From the IMG/VR virus record IMGVR_UViG_3300032092_000246, positions 1 to 24,378 of that record: a stretch of DNA of 24,378 bases; one strand, given 5' to 3'. The translations under genes and the position numbers were made by a program. The stretch is from a virus. Below the pieces are notes generated by a model that was given only the letters and a program-made list of their open reading frames with translations, was not told where the DNA came from and searched no databases. The first letter of the stretch is position 1, and each line of letters begins with the position of its first letter. Below, piece by piece: positions 1 through 17,034 of this stretch.

Positions 1-681
1 AGATTCGTACTGTATGGTCATAGAACTTTCTGCTGTGCCGCCGTCGGCGTAGTCAACATTTCCATGGTTCCAATTTTGTATTCTAGGATTTATCAGTGTA
101 TATCCGTTGAAGCGGCTACGACTCATGGTATAGATACTGATACTGTTAAAAAAGTCAAATTTCTTATCATTATCTAGACCATATCGATAATTGTCAAAAC
201 TTGTGCCCGCATTTCTATAGTGCAGGTCTTCGTAGGCATTTAATGGTAATTTGCGGTCTTGGATATAGGCAGCGTAATATATTGCCCACATTGAATTAAC
301 AATTCCGAGATTATCATCATGCATGGTAATATTAACGGGATCATAGTCTATTGATTTGTACAATAGTTTTTTTCTATTGTACTGATTTTTTGTAACCATT
401 TGAAAACTAAACTTTGGTAATTCTACATTTTTGCAAAGCAGTGCAACTTCTTGATTGTGTTTGGCCGTAAATGCTGTGGCATTGTGCGCAGAAGAATTAA
501 TTTCAAATACTGCATAATAAAGAAACTTGTGCCTCGGAGCAAGTCTAAATGTATCGTCAACAAAAATTCTGGCGGCATGCTGATAATCGGCCATAATGCC
601 TTTTGGCTTAGTAATACCGCCAAGTACTCCTGTAAAGAAGTTACCATCACCTAATAGATATCTCGTGAATTTATTCGCCAT
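1..681 (-). CDS. Tail-tube-fold virion structural protein (partial, C-terminus outside window)
   Basis: The frame is open from an ATG at 681 to the window edge, giving 227 residues without a stop, so the C-terminus lies beyond position 1. The product starts MANKFTRYLLGDGNFF. It contains a segment around residues 84-130 (KNVELPKFSF, then a basic patch, then ITMHDDNLGIVNSMW) and a later FNGYTLINPRIQNW motif followed by an acidic DYADGGTAESS stretch. This pattern resembles T4-like tail-tube-fold proteins (gp19 and the gp48/gp54 tube-initiator group), so I infer a tube-like or baseplate-hub-proximal virion protein rather than gp19 itself, which lies next door. The start has no Shine-Dalgarno sequence but is preceded by a late-promoter motif (CATAAATA) ending exactly 5 bases upstream. 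A terminator separates it from gp19, so it is its own transcription unit. The family assignment is from memory of sequence patterns and is moderately secure. Confidence 0.7.
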   Translation of the reverse strand, partial: MANKFTRYLLGDGNFFTGVLGGITKPKGIMADYQHAARIFVDDTFRLAPRHKFLYYAVFEINSSAHNATAFTAKHNQEVALLCKNVELPKFSFQMVTKNQYNRKKLLYKSIDYDPVNITMHDDNLGIVNSMWAIYYAAYIQDRKLPLNAYEDLHYRNAGTSFDNYRYGLDNDKKFDFFNSISIYTMSRSRFNGYTLINPRIQNWNHGNVDYADGGTAESSMTIQYES

Positions 682-686
682 ACAAT

Positions 687-694
687 TATTTATG
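687..694 (-). promoter_or_regulatory. T4-type late promoter, leaderless configuration
   Basis: The minus strand reads CATAAATA, one base from the T4 late -10 consensus TATAAATA. It is followed by ATTGT and then the ATG at 681. If the motif occupies -13 to -6 as in T4, transcription would begin on the A of the start codon. Confidence 0.65.
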
Positions 695-698
695 TCAC

Positions 699-724
699 AA
701 AAAAGCCCGGTATAAAACCGGGCT
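699..724 (-). terminator. Rho-independent terminator after gp19
   Basis: On the minus strand a perfect 7-bp stem (AGCCCGG / CCGGGCT) with a 7-base loop is followed by six Ts. It lies 18 bases beyond the gp19 stop codon and before the late promoter of the next gene, so it separates the gp18-gp19 unit from the downstream gene. Confidence 0.9.
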
Positions 725-4895: not shown

Positions 4896-4927
4896 ATCGT
4901 TATCTCCTGAGTTTAGTTCTCTCATAA

Positions 4928-4935
4928 TATTTAGC
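4928..4935 (-). promoter_or_regulatory. Late promoter for gp18-gp19
   Basis: The minus strand reads GCTAAATA, matching the T4/cyanophage late -10 motif (NATAAATA or CTAAATA). It lies 32 bases upstream of the gp18 ATG, leaving a conventional leader that contains AGGAG at 4904-4908. Confidence 0.6.
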
Positions 4936-4987
4936 GTAGTCTAGGAAAAATGGCTACTTATAACATATTGAAAAGGGGCAGAAAAGG

Positions 4988-4995
4988 TGTAAATA
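4988..4995 (+). promoter_or_regulatory. Late-type promoter for the zinc-finger/HNH-like gene
   Basis: TGTAAATA is followed by TCTGT and an ATG at 5001. This is the same motif-N5-ATG layout as at 687-694 and 6755-6762, and the bases TGT before ATG are also shared. It supports 5001 as the start. Confidence 0.5.
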
Positions 4996-5000
4996 TCTGT

Positions 5001-5336
5001 ATGAGACCTTTATGCAAATGCGGTTCTAGACCCCGTGCAGTCAACTACAAGAAAAACAACAGAATCTACTACCGTAGCCTCTGCGAGATCTGCATGTCTC
5101 ACGGAGTTAATCATGGAATACCCCGCTGGTTTAGGGCGGGGTATCGTATGAAATTACAATGCGATCGGTGTGGATTTAAAAGCGTTCACAAAGAACCGTT
5201 TAGGGTTTTTCATGTAGACGGCAATCTCGACAACTGCCGTCCTGCTAATTTAAAAACAGTTTGTGCTAATTGTGCTCAGGTATTAGCCAAGGACGGAGTT
5301 AACTGGAAGCAAGGAGATCTCGTTGCTGACTATTAA
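5001..5336 (+). CDS. Small zinc-finger, HNH-like protein
   Basis: The product has 111 residues from the ATG at 5001 (MRPLCKCGSRPRAV). An earlier in-frame ATG at 4950 adds 17 basic residues. I prefer 5001 because a late-promoter motif lies 5 bases before it and the N-terminus MRPLCKC matches related marine-phage proteins I recall. Two cysteine pairs (CKC and CEIC) form a first probable zinc site. A second is CDRC with VCANC, and between them FHVDGNLDNCRPANLK resembles the HNH core H..DGN..N....NL. The final histidine normally found after the last cysteine pair is replaced (CANCAQ), so nuclease activity is uncertain. The 3' end overlaps the convergent dNMP kinase gene by 54 bases. It could be a homing-type nuclease remnant or a DNA/RNA-binding regulator. 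Confidence 0.75.
   Translation: MRPLCKCGSRPRAVNYKKNNRIYYRSLCEICMSHGVNHGIPRWFRAGYRMKLQCDRCGFKSVHKEPFRVFHVDGNLDNCRPANLKTVCANCAQVLAKDGVNWKQGDLVADY
5118..5144. repeat. GC-rich inverted repeat inside the HNH-like gene
   Basis: ATACCCCGC (5118-5126) and GCGGGGTAT (5136-5144) form a perfect 9-bp stem with a 9-base loop. No T-run follows on either strand, so it does not look like an intrinsic terminator. It encodes the GIPRWFRAGYR segment. Confidence 0.7.
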
Positions 5337-5936
5337 TTTTGCCTGTTGATACAAATCGTCAATTGACTGGTTGTTGTCAATGATAGTATCAAACTCTGTG
5401 CCAACCCAGGCTGTTTCGCTAGCATGAATCTTACGCATTTTTAAATCTTGCGTTGCCCAATTATGGCCTTTGTTGGCTTCAATTGCAGTATCGTACCACT
5501 CAGGCAAGTTTCCTCGCTGCACCCATACAATTTTTCCACCTGCATCTCGTATACTTTGTATTTCGTTAGGGAAGCGGCAGTCGCTGATTACTACATTGTC
5601 TTTGCTAGTACGGAGTTTATTTTCTAGGCTGGCAATCCAAATGTCGTCATGGAATGATCTACGGCAAACTTCTGTGCCCCAGTATTGCAATACCCATCTA
5701 GGAGTTAGAGTAGGCATTGCCAGTCGTTCTGCCCACCACGGATCTACTTGTTCTCGCCACTCGCGGGCTTCTTTTGTGCGCCCTTCGAGCATGGTGCGGT
5801 CCCACCCAAATACTGCTGCCACTGCATCTTTAAGTGTGTTAGCAAATGACTCTCGCCTAAATTCGTGGAAGTTAACAAGGTAATCAGCAACTGTATCTTT
5901 GCCGCTGCCGATGAATCCGCATATTCCTATAATCAT
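5283..5936 (-). CDS. gp1: Deoxynucleoside monophosphate kinase (T4 gp1-like)
   Basis: It phosphorylates dNMPs to dNDPs with ATP, supplying phage DNA synthesis in the cytoplasm. The Walker A motif GFIGSGKDT is at residues 7-15, followed by a lid-type region rich in arginine (EGRTKEAREWREQ). The conserved WGTEVCR..FHDDIWI block (about residues 86-102) and VVISDCRFPNE (about 115-125) match the T4 gp1 family. At 217 residues it is slightly shorter than T4 gp1 (241). The start has AGGAG at a good distance (ATAGGAGACATTT-ATG). A near-consensus sigma-70 type promoter sits immediately upstream, so expression is probably early and independent of the flanking structural genes. Its last 54 bases overlap the convergent HNH-like gene. 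Confidence 0.92.
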   Translation of the reverse strand: MIIGICGFIGSGKDTVADYLVNFHEFRRESFANTLKDAVAAVFGWDRTMLEGRTKEAREWREQVDPWWAERLAMPTLTPRWVLQYWGTEVCRRSFHDDIWIASLENKLRTSKDNVVISDCRFPNEIQSIRDAGGKIVWVQRGNLPEWYDTAIEANKGHNWATQDLKMRKIHASETAWVGTEFDTIIDNNQSIDDLYQQAKLIVSNEISLLPVNSVLG

Positions 5937-5955
5937 AAATGTCTCCTATAAGACA

Positions 5956-5984
5956 AGTATACTATAGAATAACTACAAGGTCAA
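5956..5984 (-). promoter_or_regulatory. Sigma-70-like (probably early) promoter for dNMP kinase
   Basis: On the minus strand TTGACC (5979-5984) and TATACT (5956-5961) are separated by exactly 17 bases, one mismatch each from the TTGACA/TATAAT consensus. It lies in the 54-base gap after the neck-protein gene and 19 bases before the dNMP kinase ATG. Confidence 0.75.
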
Positions 5985-5990
5985 CTCTGG

Positions 5991-6749
5991 TTAACCAATT
6001 ATGAAGCTGTAGCCAGAACCGCCTGACACTAGAGTTTCTAATTCTTTGGTTAGACGATCTAGATCCGTTTGTGCTTCTGCTTTCACAGACGCACCGTTTA
6101 GACTTGAACCACCTTGAGGTCCTGCAATTTGCGCAAACTTTTCACGAGCCTGTCCTAACATCATTTTACAGTTGGCTAGACTGTAATCTTTAACCCATTG
6201 CCCTGCATAGGTATCGTTGATGATACCAAAATCTGGACGAGTATTATACACCCATAGCATTACTTCTTCTTCACCGCGGGGGCGTTGTTGAATGATCAAT
6301 TTACGATGAGTTGGATGCCATGTAAAGTTGATAAAACTACCAAACATTTTACCTACTAGTTCTTGGTACTGACTGAATAATTCGTAAGTTAATAAGCCAC
6401 CCATATTTGTTGATGATAACAAATAGGTGTTTGTATAGGCCATGTTAAACGGTTCAAATACTGTACCGCCGGTGCCGTTACCACTTCTTGAACCAACACT
6501 GCGACGGAAAATCTGACGCACCTGTTGAATTTCTTTTGGAAGAATGTATTCGTTGGTATCCTGTTTCAGTGTCATAAATGCATAACTTTCTTCTACAGCG
6601 TTATCACTTCGTTGGCGGAAAACAGCTAGACTTCGAGTCAGTGCAATTTCGTAGTGCTGGGGGTCTAATTCAATGTCAATCATGCCGTCGCCCAGCATGA
6701 GTTTGCAGTAGTCGTAGACTTCTTTTTTGGCTTGATCTATTTGGTTCAT
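5991..6749 (-). CDS. Neck/head-tail connector protein, gp13-like
   Basis: The 252-residue protein begins MNQIDQAKKEVYDYCKLMLGD and continues GMIDIELDPQHYEIALTRSL. This helix-(L.LG...I.v.l...q...ai..al) pattern is typical of connector/adaptor proteins that dock on the portal and of T4 gp13. NEYILPKEIQQVRQIFRR and MFGSFINFTWHPTHRKLIIQQRP follow, and the C-terminus has AREKFAQIAGPQGGSSLNG. I recognise close relatives as conserved structural proteins of marine T4-like phages. The gp13 label is inferred from the N-terminal pattern and from the neighbouring gp14- and gp15-like genes, although here it is on the opposite strand to them. There is no Shine-Dalgarno sequence; a late motif ends 5 bases before the ATG, suggesting a leaderless mRNA. 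The role (sealing the filled head and joining the tail) is inferred. Confidence 0.7.
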   Translation of the reverse strand: MNQIDQAKKEVYDYCKLMLGDGMIDIELDPQHYEIALTRSLAVFRQRSDNAVEESYAFMTLKQDTNEYILPKEIQQVRQIFRRSVGSRSGNGTGGTVFEPFNMAYTNTYLLSSTNMGGLLTYELFSQYQELVGKMFGSFINFTWHPTHRKLIIQQRPRGEEEVMLWVYNTRPDFGIINDTYAGQWVKDYSLANCKMMLGQAREKFAQIAGPQGGSSLNGASVKAEAQTDLDRLTKELETLVSGGSGYSFIIG

Positions 6750-6754
6750 ACAAC

Positions 6755-6762
6755 TATTTATC
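6755..6762 (-). promoter_or_regulatory. Late promoter for gp13-like gene, leaderless configuration
   Basis: The minus strand reads GATAAATA-GTTGT-ATG, with the motif 5 bases from the start codon at 6749. It is arranged head-to-head with the plus-strand motif at 6768-6775, so one 33-base gap drives both directions. Confidence 0.65.
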
Positions 6763-6767
6763 GTAGC

Positions 6768-6775
6768 GGTAAATA
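6768..6775 (+). promoter_or_regulatory. Late promoter for gp14-gp15 operon
   Basis: GGTAAATA is followed by 7 bases and the ATG at 6783. No Shine-Dalgarno sequence fits in that space, so the transcript would have a leader of about two bases or none. Confidence 0.55.
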
Positions 6776-6782
6776 TACTACT

Positions 6783-8063
6783 ATGCCAAGACTCAGCTTA
6801 TACCGCCCAGAAAAGGGCAACGATTACAAATTTATTGACAAAACCGTTTGGGAAATGTTCCAAGTTGGCGGTACTGATGTGCTGGTTCACAAATATATTG
6901 GGCCTGGAGCCGCCACTCAGGGCGATACTCCAAGTACTCCAAACTACGGTACTTCTAACGAAACACAAATTCAAGATCTGTTGTTTTTAGAAAACCGTGA
7001 TCGCAAGTATGATCCCGACATTTATCTGTTGCGTGGTGTTTACAACCTAGCAGATATTGATTTTAACCTAAGTCAATTTGGCTTGTTTTTACAAAACGAC
7101 ACAATCTTTATGACCTTCCACATCAACGACACTGTAGAAAAAATAGGTCGTAAGATCATGAGTGGCGATGTTATTGAACTACCTCACTTGAAAGATGAAC
7201 ATGCCTTAAACAATTTGCAATTTGCTCTCAAACGATTCTATGTTGTTGAAGAAGTTAATAGGGCAGCAGAAGGATTTTCAGTAACTTGGTATCCGCATTT
7301 ATATCGTGCAAAATGTAAACCCTTGGTTGACAGTCAAGAATTTAAACAGATACTTGATGGTGTTGCAGAAGAAGGCAGTAATACTACCTTGCGCGACATC
7401 ATGTCGACTTATGAAAAAGAAATGCAGATCACTGCTGCGGTACTGGACCAAGCAGAAGCAGATGCTCCAAAGAGTGGATTTGACACTACGCAGTTTTATC
7501 ACTTGCAAAAAGGCCCAGATGGTAATCCTCAACTGATCAGTGCTGACCTTGAAACAACTTTCATTACAGATAACCAACCGCAGGCCACAGACGAAAATGG
7601 TGCTCCGTTGTTTGACACTGAAGGTAATCCTATATATGCCGGAGTTACTGCTGATCAAACTTATAGAAGTATTGAGCGTGGTGGGTATGGAGAAATAAAC
7701 GGCAATACAGATACTTGGCTAGCTGATGCAATTCCAGCTAACGGTGCTAGATTCACTGCCGGTATTGCTTTCCCAACAACCCCTCAAGAAGGACAATTCT
7801 GTTTAAGAACAGATTATTTGCCTACTCGACTGTTTAGATACAGTGGCACACGATGGATCAAGATTGAGGATAATGTAAGAATGACCATGAACAACCTAGG
7901 CGAAAGCGATGTTGGCACCGGCGATAGATTTGTTGGCAAAGATGTTAGACAAACACAAAAAGCAGACTTTGTCAATAATGCAAAAACTGCAACCATTAAT
8001 GGCAAGGTAGTTAAAGAGCGCCAGAGCTTGTCAAAAGCTCTTAGACCAGAGGCAGACGAATAA
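6783..8063 (+). CDS. gp14: Neck protein, gp14-like
   Basis: I chose the ATG at 6783 (MPRLSLYRPEKGNDYKF), giving 426 residues. An ATG at 6732 is also in frame but lies inside the divergent gene, upstream of both promoters. The region DVLVHKYIGP, then LSQFGLFLQNDTIFMTFH, KIGRKIMSGDVIELPHL and VTWYPHLYRAKCKPL parallels T4 gp14 (YYVPREYVSP, NFGMQVQDEVTLSIN, KEGDLIYFP, NWVEPYDPF), a neck component that binds gp13 and caps the packaged head. The protein is much longer than T4 gp14 (256). The C-terminal extension includes one W-type decoration module (PQEGQFCLRTDYLPTRLFRY, then GTRWIKIED at about residues 352-361). It is the first gene of a plus-strand operon and its stop overlaps the next start (TAATG). 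The assignment comes from motif comparison and is moderately confident. Confidence 0.75.
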   Translation: MPRLSLYRPEKGNDYKFIDKTVWEMFQVGGTDVLVHKYIGPGAATQGDTPSTPNYGTSNETQIQDLLFLENRDRKYDPDIYLLRGVYNLADIDFNLSQFGLFLQNDTIFMTFHINDTVEKIGRKIMSGDVIELPHLKDEHALNNLQFALKRFYVVEEVNRAAEGFSVTWYPHLYRAKCKPLVDSQEFKQILDGVAEEGSNTTLRDIMSTYEKEMQITAAVLDQAEADAPKSGFDTTQFYHLQKGPDGNPQLISADLETTFITDNQPQATDENGAPLFDTEGNPIYAGVTADQTYRSIERGGYGEINGNTDTWLADAIPANGARFTAGIAFPTTPQEGQFCLRTDYLPTRLFRYSGTRWIKIEDNVRMTMNNLGESDVGTGDRFVGKDVRQTQKADFVNNAKTATINGKVVKERQSLSKALRPEADE

Positions 8064-10803: not shown

Positions 10804-11391
10804 TTATTCAAGAAACTCCACCCAACCTGTAATTGCATATTTGTCTTTGCCTATAGGTTGGTTACCGCGGTGAGTGTGGGTAAACCCAGCTGGCCAAATA
10901 ACTATTCTACCTTCCACCGGACTAATCCTAGAGTGCTGGTATAAAAATTCTGTCTCGCCGCCAACAGGAATAGTATTAAGATATATCATATAGGTTGCAA
11001 ATCTACCAGTATACAATCTTCCGTTTTGAGTTTCATAGTGCCAAATATGATAGCCACCACCCGGTTTTGTTTTCTGCAGGCGCATACTAATAATTCCATG
11101 AGGTGCTGATTTCTGTATAATGCTATATTTTTCTGAATAATTTTTATAGCAATCCCAAAACTTTCTTAACGCAGTCTGAAGAATAGGATGGGTTCGGTCT
11201 AATAAAAATCCATCAGGATCAAATAAAAAACAGGTCTCGTCGTCTTTTTCATGTCTTGGGGTTTTTTCTGAGTCTCTACGATCAAATACCAGCTCGTGAG
11301 TTTTCATGTGCTCAAAATAGTTGATGATTGTTTCGCATTCTTCTCTTGACAAAACATTATCATACACTTCGATAAAATCATCTGTTTTCAT
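10804..11391 (-). CDS. 2OG-Fe(II) oxygenase, prolyl-hydroxylase-like
   Basis: The 195-residue protein has the double-stranded beta-helix pattern of 2-oxoglutarate/Fe(II) oxygenases. YHIWHYE at residues 114-120 supplies a probable H118-x-E120 metal pair. FATYMIYLNTIPVGGETEF (131-149) is the typical P4H-like strand, with G-G-E-T. GRIVIWPAGFTHTHRGNQP (161-179) carries the distal histidine (H172 or H174). K184 in KDKYAITGWV is the likely 2-oxoglutarate carboxylate-binding residue. Glutamate replaces the usual aspartate of HxD, a known tolerated variant. Such genes are frequent in marine T4-like phages; their substrate is unknown. It is the last gene of the accessory operon and starts inside the preceding gene (14-base overlap) with AAAGG upstream. 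It hydroxylates a protein, nucleotide or small molecule, but which cannot be told from sequence. Confidence 0.85.
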   Translation of the reverse strand: MKTDDFIEVYDNVLSREECETIINYFEHMKTHELVFDRRDSEKTPRHEKDDETCFLFDPDGFLLDRTHPILQTALRKFWDCYKNYSEKYSIIQKSAPHGIISMRLQKTKPGGGYHIWHYETQNGRLYTGRFATYMIYLNTIPVGGETEFLYQHSRISPVEGRIVIWPAGFTHTHRGNQPIGKDKYAITGWVEFLE

Positions 11392-15633: not shown

Positions 15634-16167
15634 TTACAGTATCCAGGGTACTTCGAATTCTCTAGGTCTTGGAAGGCCTTCTGTAGCATATATACTCCAG
15701 GGAAAATAACAATACATAAAATACTGTGCGGCATCTAGGTCATTGGCGTCGAGTGCTTCAATTTTTTCAACTAGCTTTGCAGCCACATCTTCTGGTGCCT
15801 TAGAGTTAGCATACTGCTTCATGACAATTTTAATAAATGTTACCGAATCAGTTTTGTTCTGAGGTGTTAGAAAATAGATCTGTTTTTTATAATCGTTATT
15901 GCTGTAGCTAGTGGGACTGATAATATCTTCATAGTTTGTGGCCAACTTGTTCACTACTGTTAGTTCGCCATGACTTGCACACGCAAATTTATTTGCTTTG
16001 GCCACAGCTTCTGAAATTTGATCACCGTGCAGCCAAGAAGTAACAACCGAAGATTCATTTTCTGGGGCTATGTATGCCACTGTGTGATGCCAAAATTTTC
16101 CAATTTCTTGAATTTTTGGATCAAATCTAGGATCATTGTGTGAAATCGATTCATAAACTATATACAT
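15634..16167 (-). CDS. Conserved-context phage protein of unknown function
   Basis: The 177-residue product begins MYIVYESISHNDPRFDPKIQEIG, has no signal peptide or membrane segment, and ends with an aromatic-proline tail (FPWSIYATEGLPRPREF, then EVPWIL). The middle (DVAAKLVEKIEALDANDLDAA) is helical. I do not recognise a family. The start is well supported: GGAGGA lies 7 bases before the ATG, inside the end of the upstream gene, and the two genes overlap by 17 bases in different frames. This tight coupling with the coiled-coil protein upstream suggests the products act together, perhaps in virion assembly. A stem-loop follows the stop codon. Confidence 0.7.
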   Translation of the reverse strand: MYIVYESISHNDPRFDPKIQEIGKFWHHTVAYIAPENESSVVTSWLHGDQISEAVAKANKFACASHGELTVVNKLATNYEDIISPTSYSNNDYKKQIYFLTPQNKTDSVTFIKIVMKQYANSKAPEDVAAKLVEKIEALDANDLDAAQYFMYCYFPWSIYATEGLPRPREFEVPWIL

Positions 16168-17002
16168 CTAAAAGTCCTCCAGGCGGAACAGCACCGTTAG
16201 GCTTGGCTTCTGTATTTTTTTCTGTATCTATAATAGCTGCAGGTTTTACTAGATCAAAGCTGTCTAACGAGTTCTGTAATTTTAATTTATCATCTATCTT
16301 TAATTGTAGATTATTGGTGTACTGCTGTAGCTGGGTGGCAAAATTCAGTCCTAACGCCAGCGTTTCTGCTTGTTGTTCTGCACTCATGGTAAGAATAGCA
16401 TCCATATTACCACTGTTTATTCTTCCGTAGAAAATTAAGTCACAGGCTGCTTGTTTAGCCAAACGGTTGGTCCAAATTTCAGCTTCAAAATTATCTTCTT
16501 CTTCGGTATCTATAATATCCATATAGGTACGACCGCTGCCATCTTTTAATTTGGCTTCATCGCTGTCTAGAAATTCTTTCAGCAGGTCTACCAAGTGTTG
16601 ACGCTCTAGGTACCAGTCTTGAATTCTACGCTTGCTCATGTAAAGCAGTCTTTCAAGATTCCACATTTCAATCTCAGCCATTCTTCGGTCAAGATCATCT
16701 GTGGATGCGTCTCTTAGTCTTTTGAAGCGTTCAATTTCCACTTGATGCTTGGCTAGTTCATATTCCATGTTTTCAATGGCTTCTTCTTTGGTTTTGATTT
16801 CCAATAGCCATTGGCGAAACTTAGCAAAAGGAGTAATCTGCGCCTGACCCACAAACCACCTAAGTTTAAATTTTGGATTGGTCCATTCTTTGTTTAAAGA
16901 TTTTTTGATTAACTCTTTGTCTCTTTCTGACAACATACTTACATCAGAATTGATTTCGCTGTTAAATCTGTCTGAATGATATTCCATTATACGATCTGGC
17001 AT
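16151..17002 (-). CDS. Conserved T4-like marine phage protein with long coiled coil (putative virion or scaffold protein)
   Basis: The 283-residue product has a central coiled coil, roughly residues 60-150, rich in E, K, R and L (KTKEEAIENMEYELAKHQVE, DDLDRRMAEIEMWNLERLL, SKRRIQDWYLERQHLVDLLKE). A conserved acidic/aromatic block follows, DTEEEDNFEAEIWTNRLAKQ, then YGRINSGNMDAILTMSAEQQ. The N-terminal KFKLRWFVGQAQITPFAK and these blocks match a protein I remember as conserved in cyanophages and their relatives, usually annotated hypothetical or structural. The C-terminus is low complexity with PNGAVPPGG. The start has AAGAGGA upstream, and a perfect TATAAATA late promoter lies 24 bases before the ATG, so it is a late gene. 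The exact role is unknown. Confidence 0.75.
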   Translation of the reverse strand: MPDRIMEYHSDRFNSEINSDVSMLSERDKELIKKSLNKEWTNPKFKLRWFVGQAQITPFAKFRQWLLEIKTKEEAIENMEYELAKHQVEIERFKRLRDASTDDLDRRMAEIEMWNLERLLYMSKRRIQDWYLERQHLVDLLKEFLDSDEAKLKDGSGRTYMDIIDTEEEDNFEAEIWTNRLAKQAACDLIFYGRINSGNMDAILTMSAEQQAETLALGLNFATQLQQYTNNLQLKIDDKLKLQNSLDSFDLVKPAAIIDTEKNTEAKPNGAVPPGGLLDVYSL

Positions 17003-17026
17003 AAATTCCTCTTTTTTATAAAAACA

Positions 17027-17034
17027 TATTTATA
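17027..17034 (-). promoter_or_regulatory. Perfect T4-type late promoter
   Basis: The minus strand reads TATAAATA, an exact match to the T4 late -10 consensus, directly after the stop codon of the fibre gene at 17039. It is followed by a normal leader with AGAGGA before the ATG at 17002. Confidence 0.8.

Follow-up and report, generated by a model that had tools for sequence, protein, structure and literature searches.

TAAATA late-promoter boxes docked on start codons predict leaderless late mRNAs in a clade of uncultured T4-superfamily jumbo phages

Introduction

Late transcription in bacteriophage T4 is a textbook system, and the late genes of this phage use leaders that carry a Shine–Dalgarno (SD) sequence. 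A different mode of initiation is found on leaderless mRNAs, such as the lambda cI transcript made from PRM. Leaderless mRNAs are common in mycobacteria (PMC4633059). The T4 late box, TATAAATA, occupies positions -13 to -6 (PMC1524935), and +1 is therefore the sixth base after the box. Among marine relatives of T4, a survey of pelagimyophages found late promoters to be undetectable with methods made for cyanophages (PMC7029224). The paper on phage Melnitz, in its available text, lists 15 late promoters without commenting on how far they lie from the ATG (PMC9004378). Leaderless late genes in T4-like phages, including the Pelagibacter phage HTVC008M, had no earlier report in the literature that we searched, whose coverage leaves out preprints and most subscription journals.

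Here, we describe a clade of environmental phages whose late promoters can be compared with both systems. Relative to the T4 late promoters, which depend on gp55, gp33, and gp45, those of the clade have the same TAAATA core, with a variable -13/-12 position. They also share with T4, Syn9, and Atu_ph07 the register from box to start and a pyrimidine–purine initiator. In those three phages, however, the box lies mostly ~20 to 38 nt before the ATG, whereas in the clade a large class of boxes is docked on the ATG itself, at a spacing of five bases. With known leaderless mRNAs, this 5-base class shares a predicted 5′-terminal AUG, the lack of an SD sequence, and the almost exclusive use of ATG. Unlike them, it appears to put a phage late-sigma promoter class to this use, at many late genes and with conserved spacing.

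Results

The window analyzed here is the whole of a 24,378-base stretch from an IMG/VR virus record. As judged from its sequence, it comes from an uncultured jumbo phage of the T4 superfamily and covers a fragment of that genome. It contains T4-superfamily tail and neck genes (tail tube, long tail sheath, deoxynucleoside monophosphate kinase, head-tail adaptor Ad2, and sheath stabilizer), and its neck protein is 36 to 44% identical to the neck proteins of jumbo phages (among them Atu_ph07, Phosso, PA5oct, GAP32, and 121Q) and 79 to 100% identical to counterparts in many uncultured contigs. Several genes between positions 10804 and 13934 look, by eye and by comparison with HTVC008M, like pelagiphage genes for 2OG-Fe(II) oxygenase and tryptophan halogenase.

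A first-pass annotation had pointed to three genes in which a late-promoter-like motif is followed by five bases and then the ATG (starts at 681, 5001, and 6749), and all three sites are present exactly as it described (Table 1). The fourth gene that it reported, with a 7-base spacer before the ATG at 6783, and the SD sequences that it noted in the longer leaders of gp18 and of the gene starting at 17002 are likewise there. Within the window, three TAAATA-N5-ATG sites compare with 0.46 expected in shuffled sequence, and one of 100 shuffles reached three. By itself, this excess is only suggestive, and so modest a figure is what an origin by chance, from AT-rich sequence combined with the reader's choice of start codon, has in its favor.

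Table 1 Late-promoter boxes and associated features of the window
Feature	Position	Strand	Details
Late-promoter box ATAAATA	687..693	-	Spacer ATTGT; predicted +1 is A of ATG at 681; full site 679-693
Tail-tube-like protein, predicted leaderless	1..681	-	phrog_4542/phrog_13438 tail tube, E 3e-10 and 1e-8; truncated by window end
Intrinsic terminator of preceding tail-tube gene (743-1372)	704..724	-	8-bp stem AGCCCGG..CCGGGCT, then TTTTTG
Late box CTAAATA of tail sheath gene gp18 (ATG 4895)	4928..4934	-	Spacer 32; SD AGGAGA at 4903-4908; sheath by phrog_10581
Late-promoter box GTAAATA	4989..4995	+	Spacer TCTGT (4996-5000); predicted +1 is A of ATG at 5001; full site 4989-5003
HNH-endonuclease-like small protein, 111 aa, predicted leaderless	5001..5336	+	16 phage records match, mostly annotated HNH endonuclease/nuclease
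Neck protein/head-tail adaptor Ad2, predicted leaderless	5991..6749	-	phrog_211, E 1e-32; matches jumbo-phage neck proteins
Late-promoter box ATAAATA	6755..6761	-	Spacer GTTGT; predicted +1 is A of ATG at 6749; full site 6747-6761
Late-promoter box GTAAATA	6769..6775	+	7-base spacer TACTACT to ATG 6783; predicted 2-3 nt leader
Virion structural protein, predicted near-leaderless	6783..8063	+	phrog_11591, E 7e-88
Late box ATAAATA of gene 16151-17002	17027..17033	-	Spacer 24; SD GAGGA at 17007-17011

The gene at 5001 could alternatively be read as a longer ORF from 4950, which has an SD-like AGGA. In most of the 43 distinct orthologs, in-frame stops lie between that point and the residues MRPLC, so 5001 is the real start. 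Just 5′ of the late box of this gene, at 4970-4987, is a block of the form GAAAAGGGG-NNN-AAAAGG that is kept in most of the same 43 orthologs.

We extended the analysis to 16 contigs of relatives, taken in full, recording for every RTAAATA on either strand the distance to an ATG that opens at least 60 codons. The distances are bimodal. There are 16 cases at 4 nt, 89 at 5 nt, and 20 at 7 nt; distances of 8 to 14 nt are nearly empty (six in total); and a second, broad hump lies at 18 to 30 nt, where SD sequences appear. These raw counts overstate independence, because the ~1.2 Mb of sequence includes contigs that are near-copies of each other; after removal of similar N-termini, the distance-5 cases number 33, in 23 ortholog groups. 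The start codons at a spacer of five comprise 89 ATG, two TTG, and no GTG. A separate observation concerns overall frequency: TAAATA is the rarest hexamer of composition A4T2 in the relatives' genomes (967 occurrences versus 1182-2878), as if avoided outside promoters.

Reversed, complemented, and shuffled control motifs gave flat distributions without such a peak in the relatives, except where the motif overlaps the box. Across all 15 hexamers of composition A4T2, TAAATA shows much the strongest enrichment at a distance of 5, and 11% of all TAAATA sites in the relatives sit 5 nt before the ATG of an ORF. A wider scan of 24 contigs returned more than 130 RTAAATA-N5-ATG sites, versus six for the reversed pattern. 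The association is thus real and far beyond chance. The spacing histogram, the control motifs, and the ortholog conservation described below rule out AT-richness as its source, the shuffles and the independent annotation of HTVC008M speak against it as well, and we assign chance a negligible probability.

The first-pass annotation had stated that its three motif-N5-ATG genes lack an SD sequence, and this extends to the relatives, in which an SD is found in 0 of 54 deduplicated cases with spacers of 4 to 7, versus 43 of 77 with spacers of 17 to 44. The absence is partly automatic, because a 5-nt spacer leaves no room. More informative is the gap that separates the two classes, as is one ortholog of the terminase gene, in which the box has shifted to a spacer of 15 and an AAGGA has been gained.

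The spacing is conserved across orthologs. A spacer of five precedes the gene at 681 in 20 of 21 distinct orthologs (four in the other one), the HNH-like gene at 5001 in about 40-41 of 43 (four in two), and the neck gene at 6749 in 34 of 36 (four in two), the last with 15 different spacers that all end in T or C. For the gene at 6783, both the box and the 7-base spacing are retained in most relatives. The same spacing of five is seen in all 19 distinct orthologs of a head-associated virion protein, in 9 of 11 terminase large-subunit orthologs, and in 8 of 9 orthologs of another virion protein; in the larger ortholog groups, most exceptions have a spacing of four. The letters of the spacer vary while its length stays constant, with 45 different five-base spacers recorded. 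The base preceding the ATG is a pyrimidine in 89 of 89 cases and in 45 of 45 distinct spacers, compared with 53% at ORF starts generally (p about 5e-13, counting one vote per spacer). The TGT that had been noted before the ATG holds for the three window genes; in the relatives, only its last base is constrained, to T or C. The prediction of leaderless structural mRNAs is supported by sequence as far as the lack of a leader is concerned, but the 5-base class is not confined to structural genes: the large terminase subunit, an HNH-like gene, and a nucleotidyltransferase-like gene belong to it.

The T4 geometry from which the first-pass annotation had derived a start on the ATG is borne out both by the published position of the box (PMC1524935) and by a pyrimidine–purine step at the predicted -1/+1. 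In T4, Syn9, and Atu_ph07, TATAAATA is followed by a pyrimidine at the fifth base in 62 to 78% of cases and by a purine at the sixth in 81 to 94%. In the 5-base class of the clade, a pyrimidine occupies the fifth position after the box without exception, and the A of the ATG occupies the sixth. Because this class shares both the pyrimidine–purine register and the T4 geometry, the predicted +1 is the A of the start codon.

The leadered promoters of the clade present a different picture at the same position. Their fifth base is a purine in 50 of 73 cases, versus 0 of 33 in the deduplicated 5-base class; they favor A (59%) at that base, and a purine at the sixth is not clear. Because of this preference, initiation may shift by one base, and a 1-nt leader is possible for some genes; the 4-base class fits such variation. 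One could accordingly suppose that the late promoter is genuine and that initiation falls a few bases off the ATG throughout, yielding very short SD-less leaders of 1 to 4 nt rather than a true 5′-AUG. The existence of 4- and 7-base spacers, like the A preference, indicates that the register is not absolutely rigid. Nevertheless, the complete exclusion of purines from the fifth base in the 5-base class, as though selection disfavored a start at -1, and the invariable A of the ATG at the sixth make this explanation unlikely, and we favor initiation on the start codon.

An intrinsic terminator of the preceding tail-tube gene stops ~11 bp short of the late box of the 681 gene, and in relatives a hairpin and T tract likewise adjoin the box of its orthologs. 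In all, three gene groups of the relatives have a terminator directly adjoining the box (the 681 gene, the terminase, and one other), so read-through from upstream should not supply a leader. A gp55-type late sigma factor is present in the relatives: a search of ten contigs recovered gp55 (phrog_234) in six, one of them a 353 kb relative and the remaining five also large. The 24 kb window is too short to judge on this point. HTVC008M encodes homologues of both gp55 and gp33.

AU-rich, SD-less translation initiation exists in bacteria, and TAAATA before an ATG might in principle be a signal of this kind in the mRNA rather than a promoter, with transcripts starting further upstream. We consider this highly improbable, given that other A/T hexamers show no such peak, that the same box also occurs 18 to 40 nt upstream of SD leaders, that it equals the late promoter of the T4 family in phages that encode gp55, and that terminators lie directly upstream of it in three gene groups. 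A docked late promoter remains the preferred reading.

HTVC008M is a cultured phage whose start codons were annotated independently. Its late boxes fall into the same short and long spacer classes as those of the window clade, in a smaller, Kyanoviridae-type genome in which the spacer often begins with GT. A spacer of 4 to 8 precedes 17 genes, 12 of them at exactly 5 (starts at 6280, 7562, 11972, 18943, 19456, 31132, 49760, 75559, 75830, and 142360, and on the minus strand at 16007 and 18916); no gene has a spacer of 9 to 17; and 11 genes have spacers of 18 to 38, of which 10 carry an SD sequence. Two of the 17 short-spacer genes have an SD-like AGGA or AGGAT, which lies upstream of or against the box and thus outside the predicted mRNA. 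The short-spacer class includes genes for the tape measure, a gp2-like DNA end protector, head closure, tail tube cap, baseplate wedge, and tail completion. Random spacing between motif and ATG, the outcome against which the first-pass annotation had set its prediction, was therefore not what we found: spacing is sharply nonrandom in both the relatives and HTVC008M. At 59714, the neck gene of HTVC008M reads TAAATA-GTAGT-ATT-ATG, so that the predicted 5′ end falls on ATT, the in-frame codon immediately preceding the annotated ATG.

Docking is not a general property of T4-like phages. T4, Syn9, and Atu_ph07 show no 5-base peak, and these three, together with PA5oct, 121Q, P-SSM2, phiM12, Cr30, phiM7, and PhiW-14, have no clear excess of the arrangement over control. 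Mosig and Melnitz, which are relatives of HTVC008M, have a weak excess only (7 versus 2 and 5 versus 2, respectively).

Discussion

We propose that TAAATA serves as the -10 box of a late promoter of the T4 type, dependent on gp55. In roughly two dozen of the gene families of the jumbo-phage clade, its distance from the ATG is fixed at exactly 5 bp or, less often, 4 bp. RNA polymerase would start on the A of the start codon, producing a leaderless mRNA that ribosomes would translate by binding its 5′-terminal AUG. Other late genes of the same phages use this box 18 to 40 bp upstream, with a normal SD leader. Taken as a whole, this explanation is very probably correct; within it, the sequences show the box, its conserved spacing, the pyrimidine ahead of the ATG, the missing SD, and a gp55 gene, and from these we infer where the transcript begins, that gp55 directs its synthesis, and that the leaderless mRNA is translated. 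The clade's arrangement would thus be an unchanged T4-type late promoter in which the docking to the gene is new.

Docking of a promoter on the ATG of numerous conserved genes for virion and packaging proteins predicts leaderless translation at large scale in environmental phages, and the prediction extends to a cultured SAR11 phage, HTVC008M. For phages as well studied as the T4-like group, this would be an unusual way to make virion proteins. It may also explain the earlier failure to find pelagimyophage late promoters. In practice, the docked box could help gene callers to identify true starts and missed promoters, and the system would offer a natural test of the competition of leaderless mRNAs for ribosomes.

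A further step would be to regard leaderless initiation as a dedicated late-phase translation mode, possibly favored by ribosomes that are altered late in infection. The idea arises because HTVC008M and the 353 kb relative (L218 1471-1707, 78 aa) both encode the ribosomal protein bS21. If it were true, the phage could switch translation from SD-led host mRNAs to late mRNAs with a 5′-AUG. We regard such a mode as doubtful, and the link between bS21 and leaderless translation is only a lead. A search of 11 shorter contigs did not find bS21, and an attempt to identify the host through the bS21 of the relative gave a single distant, uninformative match.

Two of the late boxes in the window stand back to back. 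Between 6747 and 6785, the divergent boxes of the neck gene and the virion structural gene are 9 bp apart, and the start codons at 6749 and 6783 are separated by 33 bases. Both boxes and both spacings are preserved in most relatives, and the two divergent promoters may therefore compete or alternate.
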